A DNA stretch of 61,090 bases, from positions 1-61,090 of the forward strand of contig JAIOYP010000020.1 in NCBI GenBank assembly GCA_021741155.1, in the 5' to 3' direction. Made by a program: the position numbers and the translations under genes. This document shows positions 10,064-60,962 of the stretch, piece after piece. A model generated the notes under the pieces. The model was not told where the DNA came from, searched no databases, and was given only the letters and a program-made list of their open reading frames with translations. Numbering within the stretch: the stretch's first letter is position 1; each line of letters begins with the position of its first letter. Source of the stretch: Flavobacteriales bacterium (GTDB lineage: Bacteria; Bacteroidota; Bacteroidia; UBA10329).

Positions 10064-10144
10064 TGTCAATTGTCAATGCCTAAATAGAGTTGACCGTGGA
10101 CTATCGACCATCGACTTTTTCCCGTTTTTCCTTTCCCGTTTTTC
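10064..10144. repeat. Degenerate 7-bp tandem array between tadA and aspS
   Basis: The spacer contains TGTCAAT twice in tandem (10064-10077). From 10089 there is GTTGACC, GTGGACT, ATCGACC and ATCGACT, then TTTTCCC, GTTTTTC, CTTTCCC and GTTTTTC. All keep a 7-bp step from 10089. It lies between divergent promoters, so it could influence both. Confidence 0.65.
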
Positions 10145-10156
10145 CCTTTAAGACCT

Positions 10157-12750: not shown

Positions 12751-15159
12751 ATGACCGACCAAAACCAAAATGCAGTTGCTGATGACGATGAGTTGGATTT
12801 AGGAAAAATTATCCAACTTGTTCTTGAGAATTGGCTTCTGTTTGCCGTTTCAATCTTGTTGGCCTTGATTATCAGCTACGCCTACGTTTGGTATTCGCAG
12901 CCTGTGTACGAAATGACTACCACAGTATTGGTCGATGACCAAGGCTCTGATATCTCTCAGAATATTTTGGATGAAGTTGGTGTAGTAGGCAAGAAGCGGA
13001 ACATTGAAAATGAGATAGCCATTCTAAGCTCACGGAATCTTGTTGAAAAGGCTATGGCAACACTTAATCTCAACGTAAGTTATACCATCAATTTGGGGCT
13101 TAGAAAAAGAGACCTCTACAACGACAGCCCACTGAAACTTGATTATCTGCTATCCGAAGATGCTCCATCGGCCTTCCTATTCACCGTTCATCTTGCGCAA
13201 GACGAACCAACGGCTGTTCTAACCTATGAGCTGCAAGAGTCGAATGGAGATTGGACAGAATACGAACAACATATTACGCTGGAAGAACAGTTCAGTAATC
13301 CTCTAGGACATTTCCGATTACTGCCAACCGAATATTTTCCTCTATTCGCAAGTGGTGACTCTGCCCGAAGTCTTGATTACGAACTACAGTATATGAGCAA
13401 CAGTCAACTAGCCACCATCTATTTAGGGATGCTTGAAGTTGAAGAAGCGCGAGAGAAAGCAAGTATTCTGAGACTCAGGTTGAAGGACCAAGTTGGTCAG
13501 CGTGGCGAAGATGTTCTAGACGCCATTCTCGGAGTCTTTATCCAAAACAATATTGAAAAGAAGAATCAACTTGCTTCAAATTCACTGAAATTCATTGAAA
13601 AGCAGTTGGATGTGATAACTACTGACCTGACCATATTGGAGAGTGAAATAAAAGGCTTCAAGACCTCTCACGGAATCACTGACATCAGTTCGGAAGCCAC
13701 TTTCTTTCTACAACAAGTAGGATCGTTGGATGCAACAGTGTCTGAAATGGATGTGAAGCTCAGCATTATAAATTACCTGGAAGTATATATCACTTCTGAT
13801 AAGGATTTGAAAAATGCTTCACCATCAAGTTTAGGAATTGCTGATCCATTGTTGAATGCGCTCATCGTCCAACTAAACACTCTCTCAACTGAACGACAAA
13901 GTCTGCTTCGTTTTACCAAAGAAGACAATCCACTGGTTAATGCACTCGATCTTCAAATTCAGGAAACCAAGAAATCTCTGATTAATAACATCGCCAGTAT
14001 TAGAAGCGGGCTGGAAGCCTCCAAAAAGGAATTGCAGAAACAATTGGCGGGTATTGAAAAAAAGGTGAAAACCTTGCCCAAGGCTGAGTATGACTTGCTT
14101 GCTCTTCAAAGACAGTACTCTATTAAAGAGAGTCTCTATTTGCTGCTACTCGAAAAAAAATCGGAGAACTCCATTCTACTAGCCTCTACTGTTTCGGACA
14201 ATATGGTTATTGATAAGGCCAGAAGCACCGAAGACCCCATCAAACCCAAAAAATCATTCGTCTATCTCCTTGGATTATTAATTGGATTTGGTATTCCGAG
14301 TTTTTATCTCGTTTTAATACTGATTTTTGATAACCGAATCAAAGATGGAGACCACCTTAAGAAAACGTCTCCTATTCCATTTTTGGGGGTTATTCCACAT
14401 CATAACGAAACTCACTATCTGGTTGTACGCGATATGGTTAATACGGCCATTGCCGAATCATTCCGCTCCATCAGAACCAACCTTTCTTTCCTTATCCAAA
14501 AAAACGAACTTGCCTTAGGTGTGTCTCCAAAGGTCATTCAGCTCACTTCGGCCATGGGATCAGAAGGGAAATCATTCTGTTCTATCAATCTCGCAGCATC
14601 CTTGGCGCTTGGTGGCGCAAAAACCATTGTGGTCGGTCTGGATTTGCGAAAGCCAAAACTGGCAGAGTATTTTTCACTCTCCAACAAGATTGGGGCAAGT
14701 TCTGTTTTGGCTGGTATGGAATCTCTTGAAAATGCCATTTTAAGCACCGAAATTGAAAATCTAGATGTGCTCGTAGCTGGGCCAGTTCCACCCAACCCTT
14801 CTGAACTTCTTATGGGGAAAGGCTTGACCGAAATGCTGGAAAATCTTACTCAAATGTATGACCACGTTGTATTGGATACGCCTCCGATAGGTTTGGTTAC
14901 CGATAGTCTCATAATTTCTGAGCATGCCGCCACAACAATATATGTGGTTAGACAGAATGTCACGAATTTAAACAGCATGCAGTATATCAATGATTTGTAT
15001 CGATCAAAGAAGATTAAGAGTATTTCGCTATTGTTTAATGATGTGAAATCCTCAAAATTCGGCTATGGTTATGGCTATGGTTATGGTCAAGGCTACTATA
15101 TCGAAACGGTTAAGTTGACCAAGTGGCAACGACTGAAACTGTTCTTGAAGCCCTCTTAG
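12751..15159 (+). CDS. wzc: Polysaccharide co-polymerase / BY-kinase (Wzc-like)
   Basis: The 802-residue inner-membrane protein has a Wzz domain with membrane segments at about residues 28-48 and 503-527 and a coiled-coil-rich periplasmic part. A cytoplasmic bacterial tyrosine kinase domain follows. Walker A is SAMGSEGKSF (about 600), Walker A' is IVVGLDLRKPKL (about 628) and Walker B is VVLDTPP (about 706). The tail has a YGYGYGYGQGYY cluster (about 770-781), the autophosphorylation region that tunes chain length and export. It works with Wza and Wzy. It overlaps the convergent wzi-like gene by 4 bp. Confidence 0.93.
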   Translation: MTDQNQNAVADDDELDLGKIIQLVLENWLLFAVSILLALIISYAYVWYSQPVYEMTTTVLVDDQGSDISQNILDEVGVVGKKRNIENEIAILSSRNLVEKAMATLNLNVSYTINLGLRKRDLYNDSPLKLDYLLSEDAPSAFLFTVHLAQDEPTAVLTYELQESNGDWTEYEQHITLEEQFSNPLGHFRLLPTEYFPLFASGDSARSLDYELQYMSNSQLATIYLGMLEVEEAREKASILRLRLKDQVGQRGEDVLDAILGVFIQNNIEKKNQLASNSLKFIEKQLDVITTDLTILESEIKGFKTSHGITDISSEATFFLQQVGSLDATVSEMDVKLSIINYLEVYITSDKDLKNASPSSLGIADPLLNALIVQLNTLSTERQSLLRFTKEDNPLVNALDLQIQETKKSLINNIASIRSGLEASKKELQKQLAGIEKKVKTLPKAEYDLLALQRQYSIKESLYLLLLEKKSENSILLASTVSDNMVIDKARSTEDPIKPKKSFVYLLGLLIGFGIPSFYLVLILIFDNRIKDGDHLKKTSPIPFLGVIPHHNETHYLVVRDMVNTAIAESFRSIRTNLSFLIQKNELALGVSPKVIQLTSAMGSEGKSFCSINLAASLALGGAKTIVVGLDLRKPKLAEYFSLSNKIGASSVLAGMESLENAILSTEIENLDVLVAGPVPPNPSELLMGKGLTEMLENLTQMYDHVVLDTPPIGLVTDSLIISEHAATTIYVVRQNVTNLNSMQYINDLYRSKKIKSISLLFNDVKSSKFGYGYGYGYGQGYYIETVKLTKWQRLKLFLKPS

Positions 15160-38956: not shown

Positions 38957-39019
38957 TTTCAGCTTTCCTGTTTCCTGTCTCCCCTTTCAAGTTTCCTTTT
39001 TCAGCTTTCAGCTTTCAAA
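38957..39019 (-). repeat. 7-bp repeat array, cysD-proximal flank of the S23 cassette
   Basis: Nine consecutive 7-mers on the plus strand: TTTCAGC, TTTCCTG (twice), TCTCCCC, TTTCAAG, TTTCCTT, TTTCAGC (twice), TTTCAAA. There are no indels. The last unit overlaps the cysD stop codon, so the cassette boundary falls at or next to that codon. Confidence 0.9.
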
Positions 39020-53089: not shown

Positions 53090-56000
53090 CTATTTGGCCA
53101 CGTTGAGCCTTGCTCCCTCCGAATGCGTTGTAAACTCAGGTGCATACATGCATTGCAGTTGTGAGATGCCATTGCTGAAAGTTCCTGCTTGTGTTACGTT
53201 CAGGTCGTATTCGAACACAAAGGTTCCTTTCGGTAAGTAACCGAAGAAGAAGTTCATCGCTACATCCGTAGTTGAGCGGTAGAAACTCAAGCCCTCTTGA
53301 TATTCTGCTCCAGAAAGTTGCTTGCGCGGTTCAAAGCTAGCTGCTCGCATATCTTTCAGATGCACATATTCCATGTGGCGGTCGGTTTCGAGGGTGATTT
53401 TCACCCGAACTCTATCACCAACTGAAAGAGACGTTTTTGCATCCAGTTTTTTCATTAACGGCCCATTTTCCGTGTCTTGCAGCAACATCACTTCGCGCTT
53501 CATCTTGATTGGGTTGTCGGTCACGCCAGTGACCTTATCTAGGTCTTCGAAATACTGCCAGTAAACCGCGCCCCAAGCCACGCCATCGTTGTCTTTCGTC
53601 ACGGTAATGTTTCCCATTTCTGCGATGGCAGTTTGGGTTTGATGCATCAAACCCTTACCGCTCCAATTCGTTTTGAAATAGCCTGTTCCCGCTTCCGTTT
53701 TCAGGTCTTTGTCCGTTCGTGGGTCAATCGTTTCGTTCCCTATTTTGATGGAAACAAGCGGTTCGGTTGTTAGGGTTTGATGCATCAAACCCTTACCTGT
53801 TGAAAGCAAGGCATAGCACGCCTCAGCAGTTGCTTTGGTTGTTTCCCAGCTTTGCGTTTGTTTCTGCTTCAAGAGCCAAATGTTCATCTCCGAAACCATC
53901 TCAGCATCGTTCGCCACTTCGTGGAATGCTTCCAGGATCATCACGTGGTTTTCAATTGGGGCTTGATGCCAGTAATAGCCCTTGTCCATAGCCCAGTATG
54001 TTCCGAATTCCTTGCTGTTCAAGGCCGTTTCGCGAAGTGAGACAATCACCTTTTTCGCATCAGCATCAAATCCAGAACGATTGAGAATGACAGCTGCCAA
54101 GCCTTTTTGCGAAGCATCCAATTTTGTCCATTTATCTCGGATGAGTTTTACCAACAGATTGTAAGTCGTTTGCGACTTCCCTTTCAGTTTGAAATCATCC
54201 AACCAGAATGAACGTGCATAAGCCATGTGGAGGTCGGTCCAGGTTGGAGCGTCAATTGTTTTTGTGAGCGCTCTACGGTCGTAGTATTTCACCATTTCCT
54301 CATCAAGGAATTCGATGGCATTGGCGAGCATGGTCTGCGTTTCTACATCTGTTTTCCAAACGCCCATTTTGCGCATTTTTCCAAAACCAGAGACGATGTA
54401 ACGGGTGATGTACATGTCCGATTCCATTCCGTTGAACCAGCCCCAACCTCCATCAGGTTTTTGGTTTTGCTTTAGCTTTTTGAGCGCTGTTGCGAGTTCG
54501 GATTCCATTCGGTCGGTATCGAAAAGTTCGGCAATTCGTCTGCGCTGTTCGGTTTCATTTTGTGCATCGCGCACCCAAGGTGTTTCCGTAAGCAAGGCCT
54601 GTTTCAACTCTGGATTCTTCTCCAATTCTGATAAGAAAGCATCACCTTCTTTGTTCTGCGCGGCACTTTTCCATTGGTCAAAAACACGCTTGATGGCAGG
54701 GTCAGAATTGGCCAAATACGTTCCAATGGCATTCGAGTAATAGCGACTAAAAATCTGCTCCGAACATTCGTAGGGATATTCCATCATGTAGGGCAGCGAA
54801 AGCACAGCCAACCAAATTGGGTTTGGGGTGAATTCCAACGTGAGAGAATGATTTCTCAGCGATGAAGATGTGTTGTTTTTCAGTTTTTCAAACGTAAACG
54901 TGTGCGTTCCTTTTCCACGAACAGGAAGCGGCATTGCCTCCGTAACCAACATACGGTTTGAAAGCACAGGAATGGTCTTTTCCTCTCCGTCAGAATGCTT
55001 GTCAGACCACGCTTTTGTGGTGAATTTGATGGCAGCAATTCCTTCGGGAATAGTGATTTCCCAAGAAGCTACTGCCTGTCCATTTGCGATAGACAATTTG
55101 CGATTTTCAATTTGCGATTGGATGGATTCTCCAGTAAGCGCATTTGTCAGTTCCAATGAAGCGTGTGCTTTTGAAACCATAGAATCCAACACATTCACCT
55201 TCACTTGGAAGATGAGCTTATCGCCTTCCCGAACAAAACGCGGATAATTGGGCGTAATCATCAATTGCTTTCGAGTTACGACTTCTTCCGTTATCGTTCC
55301 AATTTTCAGATCTTGCGTAGTGGCCAGCCCCATGAATTTCCATCGCGTTAGCGATTGAGGCGCATTGAATTTAAAGCTGATGTTGCCTTTTTCGTCCGTT
55401 TCTAAATGCGGATGGAAGAACACCGTTTCGCTGAAATCGGAGCGCATTTTTATCTCCTTTGGCGCTTCTCCACCCAGCTTTCCTTCGGCATTTTTATCCA
55501 TCAGACCATCTGATACATCACCATCTTTTGCAAAGCTCGCTCCTGTCTGCATTTGAACTTCATCCAAGCTCATTTCCGCCTCTTCAGCAACAGCCATATC
55601 CGGTATGCCTGATGCTCTGGCGGTGTTGCGCGAAAGAGCAACCGTTTCAAGTCTATTGTAGTACCGCCTTCCTCCACCAAAATAATAACCAAACCAGTTC
55701 AATTCTTCAAAGTCTCTGGAAATGGCCGAACTCGGATATTTGATCCAATCTTTATTCCAAAGCTGGGTTTGCGCACGACCAAACGAGCTGCTTTCCCAGT
55801 TGTATCTGGCGTTCAAAAAGTTGTAGGGATAAAGCCCCCAATTGTTGGCGGCCAACACATCCAGCGAAGCATCGTACATGGTTGTAAGCAATTCTGCTTT
55901 GGCGGGTTTACCGCTCTTGTCGGTGATCTTCACCGTCCATTCTTCCTTGTCATCGGGCGCCATTTCCTTGCGGAAGGTTTCCAATTTCACATCCAACTGC

Positions 56001-59000
56001 TTGTTGGTGTAAGGAACCGAAATCGTTTTTGACCAACTCAAGAGTTCGTTATTTCGAACAGCCGTGATGTGAACCTGTGCATTTCCGCGCCAAGCTTCCG
56101 TTACAGGAATATCAATCTTCTGCTGCGTTCCCGTGCACGAAATTTCCTTGGAATAAACGAGTTTGTTCGTGCTGAATCCTTTGTCTTTGATTTCCACCTC
56201 AATCTTGAAATCCACAAACGCGTAGGACGAACCGACAAGGATTTCGAGCGTTTCGCCTGGTTCGTATTTGTCTTTTAAGGCATGAAACCAAGCGGTGGTG
56301 AAGTAAGGCGGCAACTTCGCGTCCTTCTCGGTCAAGCAGTAATAAGCCTTCTGAACCACCTCCGTTCCGAAGGCATCTTTTGCGGTCAGCTCCACCATGT
56401 AATAGCCTTGTCCGAGGCCATTCAAAGGAGCCAAACTCACATCCTTATCGGTGGCGGTTTTGAGCACGGCATGGAACATATTTCTGTCCTTTTCCCAAGA
56501 ATGAAAATCGTCTTCGTCCTTGTAGGCTTCGTTGCGGAACATGCGTTTATGGTCGATTTCCGATAGATAAAACTGATCGGGTTTTTGCCACATGCGATTG
56601 CGCAGAATGCGATCGTTTGGCTTCAATTTCCACACATCAACCGAAACATCAGCAGCCTGAGGTTCGCCAGAAAGATTGGTAGCCGAAACGGGGTAGCGCG
56701 CCAAATCATAACGCTCAATAATTGCTGGTAAATCAATGTCGATATTCAGCGAGTGATACCCGACCGAAACATTGGCCGAGCCCGTTTGCATTTCGCCACT
56801 TTGGTCGGTGACATCCACTTCTATTTGATAGCTGAAAACGGGCCCATAATCTGCTTTGATGAGCGGGTCGGGCTGTGCGGTGAATTGAATTTGGAACACC
56901 CCCGAAGCATCAGCAGTTGCCGTTCCGAACGCGACCTGTTTCGGTTGTGATTGCGGAAACCAACCCCAACAGCGCCATGAATACGGAAAGCGAGCCGTTC
57001 TAGTGATACGATACTTTACTTCGGCACCATCCAACGGAACGCCCGAATAGGACAAGGCCGTTCCAGAAATGGAAACTGTGTCGTTCACACGGAATTGTCC
57101 TTTTGGCTGATCAACCTTCACCTCAAACTTGGGTCGTTTGTATTCTTCCATGCGGAAAGAATGCGAACCACTCTCGTTGTTGATGCTGATGTAGCCGTTC
57201 AATCCGCCCGTTGGCGCAATGAAAGTGCCTGAGAATGTTCCGAAACTGTTGGTTTTGAGGCTGAGTTGACTCACTTCCTGACCATTGGCATCAAACAAGC
57301 GAACAGTGGTATTCTTCTCCGCCAAGGTTTTTACGTCCGAACCATTACTCGAATGGATGATACCCTTGAATTGAATGACCTGACCCGGACGGTAAATGGC
57401 TCTATCCAAGAAGAACGAAGTTTGGTCATTCCAGCGCACGTCTTCCTGATTTCGGTAGCCGTAAACATTATCGGCACCAATCAATTTGTCGTTGCCCAAG
57501 TGCAAATCGACCATAAAACCACGGTAATCCGAGCTTTGACCTTTCCAAACCGCCTCGCCTTTTGCGTCTGTTGTCAAGGTTTGTTCGAGCACGTATTTAT
57601 TGCTGCGATTCTTACGGTCGTACACCAAACTCAGCAGTTCGATTTTGGCGTTAGCATGCGGTTTTCCTGAGTCGCGCGAAACCACTTTCAATACAGTTTG
57701 TCCATCATCGCTTGAACGTTTCACCAGCGCCAAATCCGTCACGGTGATGATGCTGTAAGCAACCACCTCAGCATTTGTGCTCAGCTTCGAGTCTGAGCCT
57801 ACAAAAACCACGTAGGTTCCAATTGGCAAACCTTCCAATGGCAACTCAATGCTGTGCTGACGGAAATCTCCCGGATTGGGCACTCGCAAGGTTTTTTCCT
57901 TCACGGTTTGGCTGTTCGATTTGAGCCAATTCACCAGTTTTTCGCCATAATTCTGACGTGCATTTTCTCTGTATTGAATGGGGTCAAGTTTGGCCACGCG
58001 AATATGTGCTGACCATGTAGAAGCCTCTGCTTTTCCTGCATTGCGATAGCGGAAAAGAAAACGGAAAGGCTTTTCCGGAAGCACGTTCGCCTCGGCATCC
58101 ATTCCCCATTCGCGCATGCGGATGCGCTCCGAAAGCGACTGGCAATTCCTCGCGCCAAGCGTATTTGGGAATTTGTTGACGTAAACGGAACACAAGGAAT
58201 CTGCCGTTTTTAGATTCCACCAAGCTTCGTTTGTTGGGTCTGTGACGGCATTGCCTTGCTCTAAGAAAAGCTGTGCCAAGTAATAGGCAACCTCAGCGGA
58301 AACCGCATCATCCTTGTACTGTTTCAGCAGCTGTTCTAATCGGTTCTGATAGCGTGCTTGAGCCGATTGCTCTTGCGAACGATTCTGCATGAAACTCAAG
58401 CGTTTCAAATCTTCCGAAACCAAGGCTTCTGTCCCTTGTTTTTTTGCTTCGCGAAGCAATTCTTGATAGAGATGAATGGAATAAAGAGCTGGTTGTACGC
58501 CCGAGTTTTTCGGTGCTTCCCAAGCAAGGAATTCATCTACCGAACCCAACAAAAGCGTGTCGTTATAAATGCCTGATTGATCAAAATTGATGAGTTCGCG
58601 TTCTTGGGAACTGTAGAAATCCAACGCACGAGAAAGAAGTAAATGATAGAGTGATGGACGAAGATTCCGATACGTATTCGAACCTGATAGAATGGCTTCA
58701 TAGTCTTTCAGCGAAGCGGATTTGAGCACTTCTGAATTCTCCAGCGACAGCTGAAAATGTTTGTCGGCTTCTTGTGCAATCCGCTTGAAATCCCACGTTA
58801 AAATGTTCTCACCCGAATTCTCAGATGCGGTGCGATGAAGGATTTGCCAACTGTTGTTTTGATAATAACCCCAACACATTTCGGCCAGTAGCGAATGCAA
58901 AATCTGCTTGGTCGGTTCGGGTGCAGTTTTGGCTTCATCTTCTAAACGAATGATGCTTGCCACAAGACTTTCTTCCTCAAAATCTGCTTGCAGCTTGATT

Positions 59001-59200
59001 TCATGGATGACTGCCTTCACCAACTGCGGACTGTTGCTATCTTTCACCGCCTGGTCGTGGATTTTGGTGACTACCTCCAGTGCTGATTTCGGGCGGCCCT
59101 CGGCCATAAATACATCAACCTGTTTCCACATTTCGTCATAGCTTGGTGTGCCGATGGGAAACGCAAAAAGGGTGAGTAATAAAATCGGAATCAATTTCAT
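53090..59200 (-). CDS. Alpha-2-macroglobulin family protein, thioester type
   Basis: The 2036-residue protein has a signal peptide (MKLIPILLLTLFAFPIG), an N-terminal helical repeat region (about 30-350), several macroglobulin (MG) domains (about 380-1300), and a thioester motif CSEQ in MEYPYECSEQIFSRYYSNAI (Cys about 1479). A terpenoid-cyclase-like domain (GWGWFNG, then WTDLHMAY) follows, then a C-terminal receptor-binding-like domain. Such proteins trap proteases in the periplasm. There is no lipobox or T9SS tail. Two copies of a 20-bp palindrome lie in frame near residues 1803 and 1849. Confidence 0.92.
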   Translation of the reverse strand: MKLIPILLLTLFAFPIGTPSYDEMWKQVDVFMAEGRPKSALEVVTKIHDQAVKDSNSPQLVKAVIHEIKLQADFEEESLVASIIRLEDEAKTAPEPTKQILHSLLAEMCWGYYQNNSWQILHRTASENSGENILTWDFKRIAQEADKHFQLSLENSEVLKSASLKDYEAILSGSNTYRNLRPSLYHLLLSRALDFYSSQERELINFDQSGIYNDTLLLGSVDEFLAWEAPKNSGVQPALYSIHLYQELLREAKKQGTEALVSEDLKRLSFMQNRSQEQSAQARYQNRLEQLLKQYKDDAVSAEVAYYLAQLFLEQGNAVTDPTNEAWWNLKTADSLCSVYVNKFPNTLGARNCQSLSERIRMREWGMDAEANVLPEKPFRFLFRYRNAGKAEASTWSAHIRVAKLDPIQYRENARQNYGEKLVNWLKSNSQTVKEKTLRVPNPGDFRQHSIELPLEGLPIGTYVVFVGSDSKLSTNAEVVAYSIITVTDLALVKRSSDDGQTVLKVVSRDSGKPHANAKIELLSLVYDRKNRSNKYVLEQTLTTDAKGEAVWKGQSSDYRGFMVDLHLGNDKLIGADNVYGYRNQEDVRWNDQTSFFLDRAIYRPGQVIQFKGIIHSSNGSDVKTLAEKNTTVRLFDANGQEVSQLSLKTNSFGTFSGTFIAPTGGLNGYISINNESGSHSFRMEEYKRPKFEVKVDQPKGQFRVNDTVSISGTALSYSGVPLDGAEVKYRITRTARFPYSWRCWGWFPQSQPKQVAFGTATADASGVFQIQFTAQPDPLIKADYGPVFSYQIEVDVTDQSGEMQTGSANVSVGYHSLNIDIDLPAIIERYDLARYPVSATNLSGEPQAADVSVDVWKLKPNDRILRNRMWQKPDQFYLSEIDHKRMFRNEAYKDEDDFHSWEKDRNMFHAVLKTATDKDVSLAPLNGLGQGYYMVELTAKDAFGTEVVQKAYYCLTEKDAKLPPYFTTAWFHALKDKYEPGETLEILVGSSYAFVDFKIEVEIKDKGFSTNKLVYSKEISCTGTQQKIDIPVTEAWRGNAQVHITAVRNNELLSWSKTISVPYTNKQLDVKLETFRKEMAPDDKEEWTVKITDKSGKPAKAELLTTMYDASLDVLAANNWGLYPYNFLNARYNWESSSFGRAQTQLWNKDWIKYPSSAISRDFEELNWFGYYFGGGRRYYNRLETVALSRNTARASGIPDMAVAEEAEMSLDEVQMQTGASFAKDGDVSDGLMDKNAEGKLGGEAPKEIKMRSDFSETVFFHPHLETDEKGNISFKFNAPQSLTRWKFMGLATTQDLKIGTITEEVVTRKQLMITPNYPRFVREGDKLIFQVKVNVLDSMVSKAHASLELTNALTGESIQSQIENRKLSIANGQAVASWEITIPEGIAAIKFTTKAWSDKHSDGEEKTIPVLSNRMLVTEAMPLPVRGKGTHTFTFEKLKNNTSSSLRNHSLTLEFTPNPIWLAVLSLPYMMEYPYECSEQIFSRYYSNAIGTYLANSDPAIKRVFDQWKSAAQNKEGDAFLSELEKNPELKQALLTETPWVRDAQNETEQRRRIAELFDTDRMESELATALKKLKQNQKPDGGWGWFNGMESDMYITRYIVSGFGKMRKMGVWKTDVETQTMLANAIEFLDEEMVKYYDRRALTKTIDAPTWTDLHMAYARSFWLDDFKLKGKSQTTYNLLVKLIRDKWTKLDASQKGLAAVILNRSGFDADAKKVIVSLRETALNSKEFGTYWAMDKGYYWHQAPIENHVMILEAFHEVANDAEMVSEMNIWLLKQKQTQSWETTKATAEACYALLSTGKGLMHQTLTTEPLVSIKIGNETIDPRTDKDLKTEAGTGYFKTNWSGKGLMHQTQTAIAEMGNITVTKDNDGVAWGAVYWQYFEDLDKVTGVTDNPIKMKREVMLLQDTENGPLMKKLDAKTSLSVGDRVRVKITLETDRHMEYVHLKDMRAASFEPRKQLSGAEYQEGLSFYRSTTDVAMNFFFGYLPKGTFVFEYDLNVTQAGTFSNGISQLQCMYAPEFTTHSEGARLNVAK
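53635..53654. repeat. 20-bp palindrome inside the macroglobulin gene (copy A)
   Basis: GGGTTTGATGCATCAAACCC is its own reverse complement and encodes part of GKGLMHQT in the minus-strand frame. Confidence 0.9.
53773..53792. repeat. 20-bp palindrome inside the macroglobulin gene (copy B)
   Basis: An identical 20-bp palindrome, 138 bp (46 codons) away and in the same frame, so it also encodes GKGLMHQT. One flanking base pair extends it to 22 bp. Confidence 0.9.
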
Positions 59201-59232: not shown

Positions 59233-59332
59233 GTGGTATTCCATAAGCGGCCTTTCAAACAGGATGCCAACCATTAGAAAACCAACTCGTTTTCGACATA
59301 ATTTGGCGATATTTACGTTATCAATTTTGGTT

Positions 59333-59578
59333 ATGAAAGTCACGAAGAAGCAATACATAATGGATGAGGATGGCAATAAAGTTGCCGTGATTCTTCCTAT
59401 CAAGAAGTATGAAAGAATGCTTCAAGATCTTGAAATGCAAGAGGATGTGGCTTTGTATGATAAAGCCAAAAAGCGAGAGCAAGTGTTTCTAGATGCAAAA
59501 GATGCGATTGCTGAAGCAGATTCCTCTAGAATGGATTTCTCAGAATATGTTCGTCAGCGAAAAGCTGGAATCCGATAA
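59333..59578 (+). CDS. Phd/YefM-type antitoxin
   Basis: ATG 59333 gives an 81-residue protein: MKVTKKQYIMDEDGNKVAVI, then LPIKKYERMLQDLEMQEDV and a Lys/Glu-rich helical tail. That is the form of Bacteroidota antitoxins paired with RelE/ParE-like toxins. The upstream in-frame codons do not look like coding. The next frame is a broken toxin gene, so this antitoxin appears orphaned. Confidence 0.7.
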   Translation: MKVTKKQYIMDEDGNKVAVILPIKKYERMLQDLEMQEDVALYDKAKKREQVFLDAKDAIAEADSSRMDFSEYVRQRKAGIR

Positions 59579-60343: not shown

Positions 60344-60685
60344 TTACAATCTGTCTAGAAATTCGAGGAGTAGTTTGCGCTTGTCGTTGTCGAGGTTTTC
60401 GAGCTTGCGGCTGACATCGATGGGGGCATGCTCGATGACCATGGGTTGGAGGAAGGATTGTTGTTCCAATTCCTCTTCGTTGGCGGGTACGTATTGGATG
60501 AGGTCGTTGAGGGTGCATTTGAATGCCTGACACAGTTTGTAGAGCAGTGGAAGGTCGAATTTCTGTAGTCTTCCTTGGCTGATTTCGGTGGCGTGGAACC
60601 TTGATAGGCCCTTTTTGCGCAAGTGGGAGTGAAGGTTTTTGATGCCGAGCTCTTGGGCTACTTGAATGATGCGTGTTTGTAGCAT
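60344..60685 (-). CDS. XRE-family transcriptional regulator
   Basis: The 113-residue protein has a Cro/C1-type helix-turn-helix at about residues 20-65: NLHSHLRKKGLSRFHATEIS, GRLQKFDLPLLYKLCQAFKC, TLNDLIQYVP. A short C-terminal helical tail (about 80-113, SRKLENLDNDKRKLLLEFLD) could be for dimerisation. It lies directly downstream of a 21-bp-period operator-like array, which is the obvious candidate binding region. A likely -7 element, TATTTTAG on the minus strand, is at 60701-60708 beside the first repeat. Neither target genes nor signal are known. Confidence 0.8.
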   Translation of the reverse strand: MLQTRIIQVAQELGIKNLHSHLRKKGLSRFHATEISQGRLQKFDLPLLYKLCQAFKCTLNDLIQYVPANEEELEQQSFLQPMVIEHAPIDVSRKLENLDNDKRKLLLEFLDRL

Positions 60686-60710: not shown

Positions 60711-60962
60711 TGATCTAATTGATGTGAATATCTAAGTTATTAGTATAAATGTATGGTTTATTAGTTCTTGATTCAGGGATATTAGAACATAAATCTAATT
60801 AATTAGATTATAACGCGGTGTAATTAGATATAAATGCAGCTTATTTGGTACTGTATGCTAATATATTAGTATAGACATCTGATTTATTAGTACATCAAGC
60901 ATACTAATTAGCATGAGAATCTAAGTAATTAGAACATTAGGCGGATAAATTTGACCCTTCCT
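60711..60962. repeat. 21-bp phased tandem array (12 units, 10 strong)
   Basis: From 60732 to 60941 ten consecutive 21-bp units run without any insertion or deletion. Positions 8-12 of the unit are ATTAG in nine of ten units, and position 1 is C in nine of ten. The consensus of the first 12 positions is CTAAnTwATTAG. Perfect CTAA-N4-TTAG palindromes fall at 60732, 60795, 60858 and 60921, every third unit, 63 bp apart. 60792-60809 is an 18-bp perfect palindrome. Weaker units extend to 60711 and 60962. All frames are closed by stops. Confidence 0.93.

Follow-up and report, generated by a model that had tools for sequence, protein, structure and literature searches.

A 21-bp phased repeat array upstream of an XRE-type regulator gene in a Flavobacteriales bacterium and its relatives: a candidate many-site operator

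Repressors of the XRE/Cro-CI type, including lambda CI, SinR, and the controller proteins, are autoregulated through few operators, and to our knowledge most bacterial repressors have one to a few operators. Plasmid iterons are direct repeats bound by a Rep protein approximately two helical turns apart on one face of the DNA, and the heptad arrays of plasmid pSM19035 comprise 7-bp repeats. In the ParR/parC system, a small DNA-binding protein is associated with 10–20 bp direct repeats upstream of its operon, and each family has its own parC repeats, which the cognate ParR recognises (PMC9426499). For ParB of pSM19035, repeat number and contiguity matter for the complex (PMC9499535). Here, a 21-bp repeat array upstream of an XRE gene is compared with these systems. 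The array lies in a stretch of DNA of 61,090 bp (hereafter, the window), which is an entire contig of a 3.76-Mb assembly of 69 contigs and ends 128 bp past position 60962. The XRE/Cro-CI repressors resemble this locus in their fold and in having sites upstream of their own gene; however, they have two or three operators, whereas 5–20 units are found here at a fixed 21 bp, mostly asymmetric in the subfamily of the window. Iterons are likewise direct repeats of approximately two turns, whereas here no Rep gene was seen and several different arrays occur per chromosome. ParR/parC shares a small DNA-binding protein and upstream direct repeats differing between families, although ParR is typically a ribbon-helix-helix protein working with ParM, whereas the present protein has a predicted XRE fold, is chromosomal as far as searched, and has no NTPase among 20 neighbours; the pSM19035 arrays are similar as repeat arrays and different in their ribbon-helix-helix protein and ParA partner. 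ParR/parC and the pSM19035 arrays may be considered the nearest architectural analogues, and the locus is not classed with either because no partner NTPase was found. A description of such arrays was not found in searches of open-access literature, and none of five spacing terms is present in PMC12204516.

The array at 60711–60962 is confirmed as real. ATTAG starts at positions 60739, 60760, 60781, 60802, 60823, 60865, 60886, 60907, and 60928, in a single 21-bp register; when the local 310 bp were shuffled 20,000 times by a first-order Markov model, no shuffle held more than three in-register copies, against the nine observed. A previous sequence-only reading had described ten ATTAG units without indels; the register is indeed free of indels across approximately 190 bp, whereas the unit at 60844 reads ATTTG, and the array thus consists of nine exact units and one variant. 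A further exact ATTAG at 60936 is off the register. Column counts reveal a sharp core at positions 8–12, the rest of the unit being loose, and the array was not reported by Tandem Repeats Finder at a score of 40, only its core columns being well conserved. The palindromes noted in every third unit are present as four CTAA-N4-TTAG sites in 63-bp steps (Table 1). Identity at lag 63 is not above that at lag 21 (0.53 versus 0.56 over 126 bp; 0.57 each over 84 bp), and the 63-bp superunit is therefore carried by the four CTAA. The pooled units show no significant dyad symmetry (p 0.154), although four single units are full palindromes. The same reading had placed the XRE gene 26 bp away and found every frame rich in stops; the start codon lies at 60685 on the minus strand, against 60711 for the array, and the six frames contain 4 to 13 stop codons each in 252 bp.

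Table 1. Coordinates of the array and associated features in the window
Feature	Position	Strand	Remark
XRE/Cro-type regulator, 113 aa, Pfam HTH_26, C-terminal helical tail	60344..60685	-	
Codons of residues 25-34 (KGLSRFHATE), start of presumed recognition helix	60584..60613	-	Model helix 29-36
Leader, array to XRE start codon	60686..60726	-	41 bp by PWM boundary
21-bp array	60711..60962	No strand	PWM boundary 60727-60957, 11 units; core toward XRE gene CTAAT plus weak distal G
CTAA-N4-TTAG palindrome 1	60732..60743		Full
CTAA-N4-TTAG palindrome 2	60795..60806		Full
CTAA-N4-TTAG palindrome 3	60858..60869		Full
CTAA-N4-TTAG palindrome 4	60921..60932		Full
Possible divergent gene start, truncated by contig end	61014..61090	+	Open frame read by eye

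The XRE protein of the window matches HTH_26 at 29.5 bits against a curated cut-off of 22, and modelling predicts an XRE fold. The AlphaFold model (mean pLDDT 78.5, pTM 0.56) comprises a helical HTH and two short strands. The nearest PDB folds in Foldseek were SaPI2 Stl, CylR2, and the Bacteroides protein 3bs3, and SinR was also matched; the best TM-score was 0.51 of the query over approximately 69 columns, and the best E-value was 0.0088, with no match at E ≤ 0.001. SaPI2 Stl (PDB 8q86, 8rc5) was also the best solved XRE match in a profile search (E 0.00055). Stl, thus the best profile match and top fold match, is itself a 232-aa repressor of a phage satellite, for which we know of no 21-bp array.

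The 21-bp period accompanies the gene in most relatives. With the XRE protein as query, 99 genomes yielded 17 weak homologues (24–35% identical) in seven other genomes, and the top period was 21, 42, or 63 bp at all 17 loci, with an identity of 0.56 or more. In 395 genomes of the class, a profile search at a threshold of at least 58 bits gave 40 matches in 38 genes (that of the window included) in 21 genomes, with up to five members per genome. Periods of 6–79 were compared over the 600 bp before each gene: 21, 42, or 63 ranked first in 36 of the 37 other members and in none of seven distant HTH genes taken as controls, the exception among the members (L123) being a 73-aa open frame that lies at a contig end and has no array. 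A second profile search, of 395 phylum genomes with a stricter cut-off, found members in seven genomes, the window's own and two already seen among them, and provided four new loci, all with arrays, one of which is on the same contig as L181. Furthermore, a contig scan of named genomes gave 114 relatives, of which the best 80 loci were kept and split by eye into family-like loci (L144–L195 plus L199) and short HTH matches (L196–L223). Among these best 80 of 114, a top period of 21, 42, or 63 was found in 44 of 52 family-like loci and was missing from eight; five of the 44 reached only 0.49–0.52 identity, and 11 of the 52 duplicate loci already counted. The short HTH matches, mostly from Clostridia, were flagged in 1 of 26 evaluable cases, which is background level (0.45). 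An array is present at L199, an additional family member from Flavobacterium. The named carriers include Flavobacterium, Chryseobacterium, Epilithonimonas, Arcicella, Imperialibacter, and an Ignavibacteria metagenome-assembled genome; further carriers are Acidobacteriota (Pyrinomonadaceae, Chloracidobacterium), here represented by metagenome-assembled genomes only. Misbinned contigs are possible in all of these metagenome-assembled genomes. Four loci of the window's genus (L074, L119, L120, and L121) encode proteins of 217–235 aa with two tandem XRE domains and have 21-bp arrays upstream, the conserved unit of L120 being unusually long.

A strict test required an identity of at least 55% over 84 bp at lag 21, with the array within 600 bp upstream, and was applied to 82 loci including the window, L123 and the 11 duplicates of the named scan being left out. 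It was passed by 65 of the 82 members, compared with 4 of 687 background segments, i.e., other 600-bp segments of the same loci (Fisher p 4e-73). After thinning to less than 70% protein identity, 54 of 64 members passed. Each other period from 15 to 30 was found in 0–1 of the 82. The window itself reached 0.571, just above the cut-off, and ranked 63rd of 82, a weak position. The 17 failures range from 0.39 to just below 0.55; five are narrow (0.54–0.55 or 0.52), L153–L155, L159, L160, L163, and L175 are clear (0.39–0.48), and nine are from a single set of similar proteins. The proposal of phased sites on one face of the DNA is thus supported. A lack of period conservation in relatives, which the sequence-only reading had named as part of its refutation, did not hold; the exact motif is common to closer relatives only.

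Periodicities of this kind also occur elsewhere. In 461 kb of the window's own genome, 21-bp periodicity at 0.58 over 105 bp was found at three places, two of which are mixed 7/14/21 repeats; the array of the window falls short of this cut-off. Nine of 12 tandem-repeat rows in the window, some overlapping, have a period of 7, 14, or 21, and these periods are common among the repeats at 256–308, 10118–10145, 38957–39017, and 55082–55120. TTAG was considered as a special motif and rejected, because its reversal, GATT, taken as a control, equalled or exceeded it in frequency in six of nine genomes. A search for TTAG at 21-bp spacing gave arrays away from XRE genes in genomes G000 (the window's own), G002, G006, G007, and G008, a set biased by the query. 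A weak 22-bp periodicity is seen near HTH genes at G000:C40 (L331/L352) and L309, with identities of 0.54 and 0.58.

With a looser test that lacks a matched background, at least five units are present in 74 of the 82 loci, with a median of 10 and a range of 5–20. The median distance of these 74 arrays to the start codon is 56 bp, and 58 end within 100 bp of it. Some arrays contain higher-order duplications of 42 or 63 bp. Among distant members the sequence of the unit varies widely at a constant period, and the motif also varies among distant paralogues of a single genome. Close paralogues of the same genome have a common motif (L124/L126 in G011; L127/L131 in G057), and addresses are therefore not always private. 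Units are palindromic in 7 of the 74 arrays at p < 0.05 (median p 0.50); the palindromes of the window are therefore a local detail, and the palindrome and 63-bp scheme was dropped as a general rule. The motif TAnnTTTG, which we take to be the Bacteroidota-type promoter element, lies in the 150 bp preceding the start at 18 of 74 loci, the expected number being 8 and the reverse-strand number 4, and is absent from the 150 bp before the XRE start of the window.

The motif of the window was looked for elsewhere in its own genome, and eight units, four with exact CTAAT, were found at about G000:C27:2625-2792 (L001), directly before another XRE gene, which differs from that of the window and encodes a coiled-coil-like tail. 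Relatives of this second subfamily comprise 14 matches in 8 of 118 genomes, the window's own included, which has three such genes (C27, C65, and C59). Arrays of 21 bp accompany 12 of the 14, the misses being one partial match and one spacing of 22 bp, and the units are palindromic in 11 of 12 (median p 0.003). The palindromic dimer sites proposed earlier are thus characteristic of the second subfamily and not of the window's. Since the units are mostly non-palindromic in one subfamily and palindromic in the other, two XRE subfamilies seem to have a common 21-bp layout that is apparently read differently. In the window's own genome, 21-bp arrays were found at 4 of 27 HTH_26/HTH_3 matches (E up to 1, not all of them real HTH genes), and all four belong to the two subfamilies. 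A further cluster at G000:C68:10313-10422 (L059) comprises three exact ATTAG and one variant in 21-bp register; it is located upstream of a kduI-like gene (named by eye), at a distance of at least about 210 bp, and is a possible trans target of the window's XRE protein. At G000:C67, about 13950–14200 (L058), approximately a dozen 21-bp units (TTAGAAAAT...) lie with no XRE gene alongside, between genes resembling dnaX and acyl-CoA synthetase by eye.

The relation between motif and protein was analysed at 65 loci. Below 85% protein identity, the similarity of the units correlated with that of the proteins at r 0.22 on the same strand and 0.07 on the opposite strand, and with that of the recognition helices at r 0.16 on the same strand (partial 0.087, p 0.001); opposite-strand correlations were 0.05–0.07 overall. 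When a 10-column window was slid along the protein, the best of 50 positions was the start of the recognition helix (KGLSRFHATE), with a partial r of 0.128, a permutation p of 0.0005, and a family-wise p of 0.003. The motif type therefore appears to track the recognition helix weakly, a small effect that partly reflects common descent. In close pairs, the core, whose columns were picked by within-array conservation, is better conserved than its surroundings. Core columns of three homologous but diverged pairs, L104/L131, L126/L131, and L104/L126, are 91–93% identical, versus 62–64% for other array columns, and the flanks of the same pairs are 68–74% and the third codon positions 72–79% identical. 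Among pairs whose proteins are at least 80% identical, the core is ahead of the remaining array columns in 11 of 11 under three gap settings; among all pairs with at least 55% protein identity, it is ahead in 35–41 of 48, depending on the gap setting. Array indels sum to whole 21-bp units in L127/L129 and L184/L188; in most pairs with at least 55% protein identity, the small gaps are not multiples of 21, alignment noise being possible and the lists being noisy except for the closest pairs. On balance, selection on core and register would fit these comparisons better than neutral slippage.

The neighbouring genes were surveyed for a functional context. Pfam families of 20 chosen neighbours of other members comprise pseudouridine synthase, radical SAM, SIR2-like, Schlafen-type helicase, tryptophan dioxygenase family, ParE toxin, MspI endonuclease, DDE transposase, SpoIIE phosphatase, PorV, YqeY, YgbB, release factor 3, a transporter, and a beta-propeller protein, and five neighbours have no family; ParA, ParM, TubZ, and Rep were not found among them, nor was a partner NTPase or Rep among the three genes of the window that flank the array on the side of the XRE gene, the other side running past the contig end. 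No full-length member was found in plasmids (query, the window protein), phages (query, the L009 protein), or viral contigs (query, alignment A3); 18 viral loci are short HTH matches, and none of these reaches 0.55 at lag 21. An iteron-like replication or partition site, which the sequence-only reading had also entertained, is not supported, on these grounds and because the motifs of distant paralogues in one genome differ. On the far side of the array, a conserved protein of approximately 312–341 aa (P318) is divergently encoded in 12 of 36 loci, L122 among them. One model shows a helical protein that carries a C-terminal beta domain (pTM 0.37), the C-terminal part varies, and among the matches listed in a fold search it was mainly this beta domain that was matched. 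The P318 family (L229–L258, for example L244, L242, and L254) has up to 13 matches per genome, and arrays lie upstream in 18 of the 28 evaluable loci of 30; some of these arrays consist of nearly perfect repeats.

The best reading of the locus is that the phased sites would be bound by the neighbouring XRE protein. Judged from the sequence comparisons, the array is probably a dedicated operator array of this protein, filled cooperatively and repressing the protein's own promoter. Each 21-bp unit would be bound by one XRE subunit or dimer through the recognition helix. Because 21 bp correspond to two turns, the bound copies would lie on one face of the DNA and could touch their neighbours, and through this contact approximately ten sites would fill cooperatively into a single nucleoprotein stretch of approximately 230 bp beside the XRE promoter. 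Linkage, fixed period, core conservation in close pairs, and covariation of helix and motif are observed here, and from them we infer binding, cooperativity, and a steep, threshold-like repression of the XRE gene by its own protein; the gene diverging from the other end of the array, where present, is perhaps repressed as well. Units would be gained and lost whole, and motif and recognition helix would drift jointly, so that distant paralogues would acquire different addresses. The retention of this layout across most relatives examined, with motifs differing between distant members, suggests a self-addressed, many-site genetic switch.

Several observations could be explained otherwise. The two additional CTAAT-core clusters of 21 bp in the window's own genome (C27 and C68) would suit a titration sponge, in which the regulator, acting on real targets at other genomic places, is sequestered by the array until its amount passes a threshold; however, C27 may be the own array of its neighbouring XRE gene, the arrays are promoter-proximal, and a helical phase that a sponge does not need is kept, and this explanation is accordingly unlikely. 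It is very unlikely that another protein binds the array, or that the array acts as RNA, with the XRE gene merely adjacent. Arrays occur near P318 genes without this XRE gene (13 of 28 evaluable loci) and elsewhere, and 21-bp arrays are therefore not exclusive to the XRE family; by contrast, the motif follows the recognition helix of XRE, and distant paralogues of one genome carry unrelated motifs, unlike the sites of one common protein.

A centromere-like or DNA-organising site, wrapped by the XRE protein as parC is wrapped by ParR and serving segregation or chromosome structure, would account for a layout resembling the direct repeats upstream of the operon of a repeat-binding protein (PMC9426499). 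The neighbours scanned include no ParA, ParM, or TubZ, though, a genome may hold up to five members with motifs differing among distant ones, and the plasmid and phage searches returned no full-length member, which makes such a role highly improbable. Repeats with periods in multiples of 7 in the window's own genome, and the higher-order duplications of some arrays, are what slippage might leave behind; yet a functionless neutral minisatellite is scarcely credible against the gap between members and background in the strict test, and the excess of core over spacer conservation in all 11 close pairs is unexpected from slippage or homogenisation alone.

An operator array of the adjacent XRE protein might have a wider meaning. 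Conceivably, although we rather doubt it, the loci represent a large unnamed class in Bacteroidota and Acidobacteriota, in which at least two XRE subfamilies, with asymmetric and palindromic units, polymerise on their own arrays, the unit count setting a threshold, array length providing an evolvable dial, and diverged paralogous switches being orthogonal. The gene family itself, in Bacteroidota (with Ignavibacteria) and Acidobacteriota, has a median of ten phased units, free in sequence and apparently fixed in spacing. If the preferred reading is true, it would offer a natural series of protein–operator pairs from which XRE specificity could be read, a clean system in which the effect of site number and helical phase on the steepness of a switch could be tested, and a simple rule for genome scans, 21-bp periodicity upstream of small HTH genes, by which more could be found.

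At the related loci L104, L124, and L131, the array is preceded by similar divergent genes resembling DDE transposases, and the downstream genes are not all alike, and some of these loci may therefore be mobile. The window also contains a RelB-like antitoxin gene (PF18506) at 59264–59578, with no toxin gene beside it in the list of open reading frames, and, at 53090–59200, a gene for a bacterial alpha-2-macroglobulin-like protein of 2036 aa.
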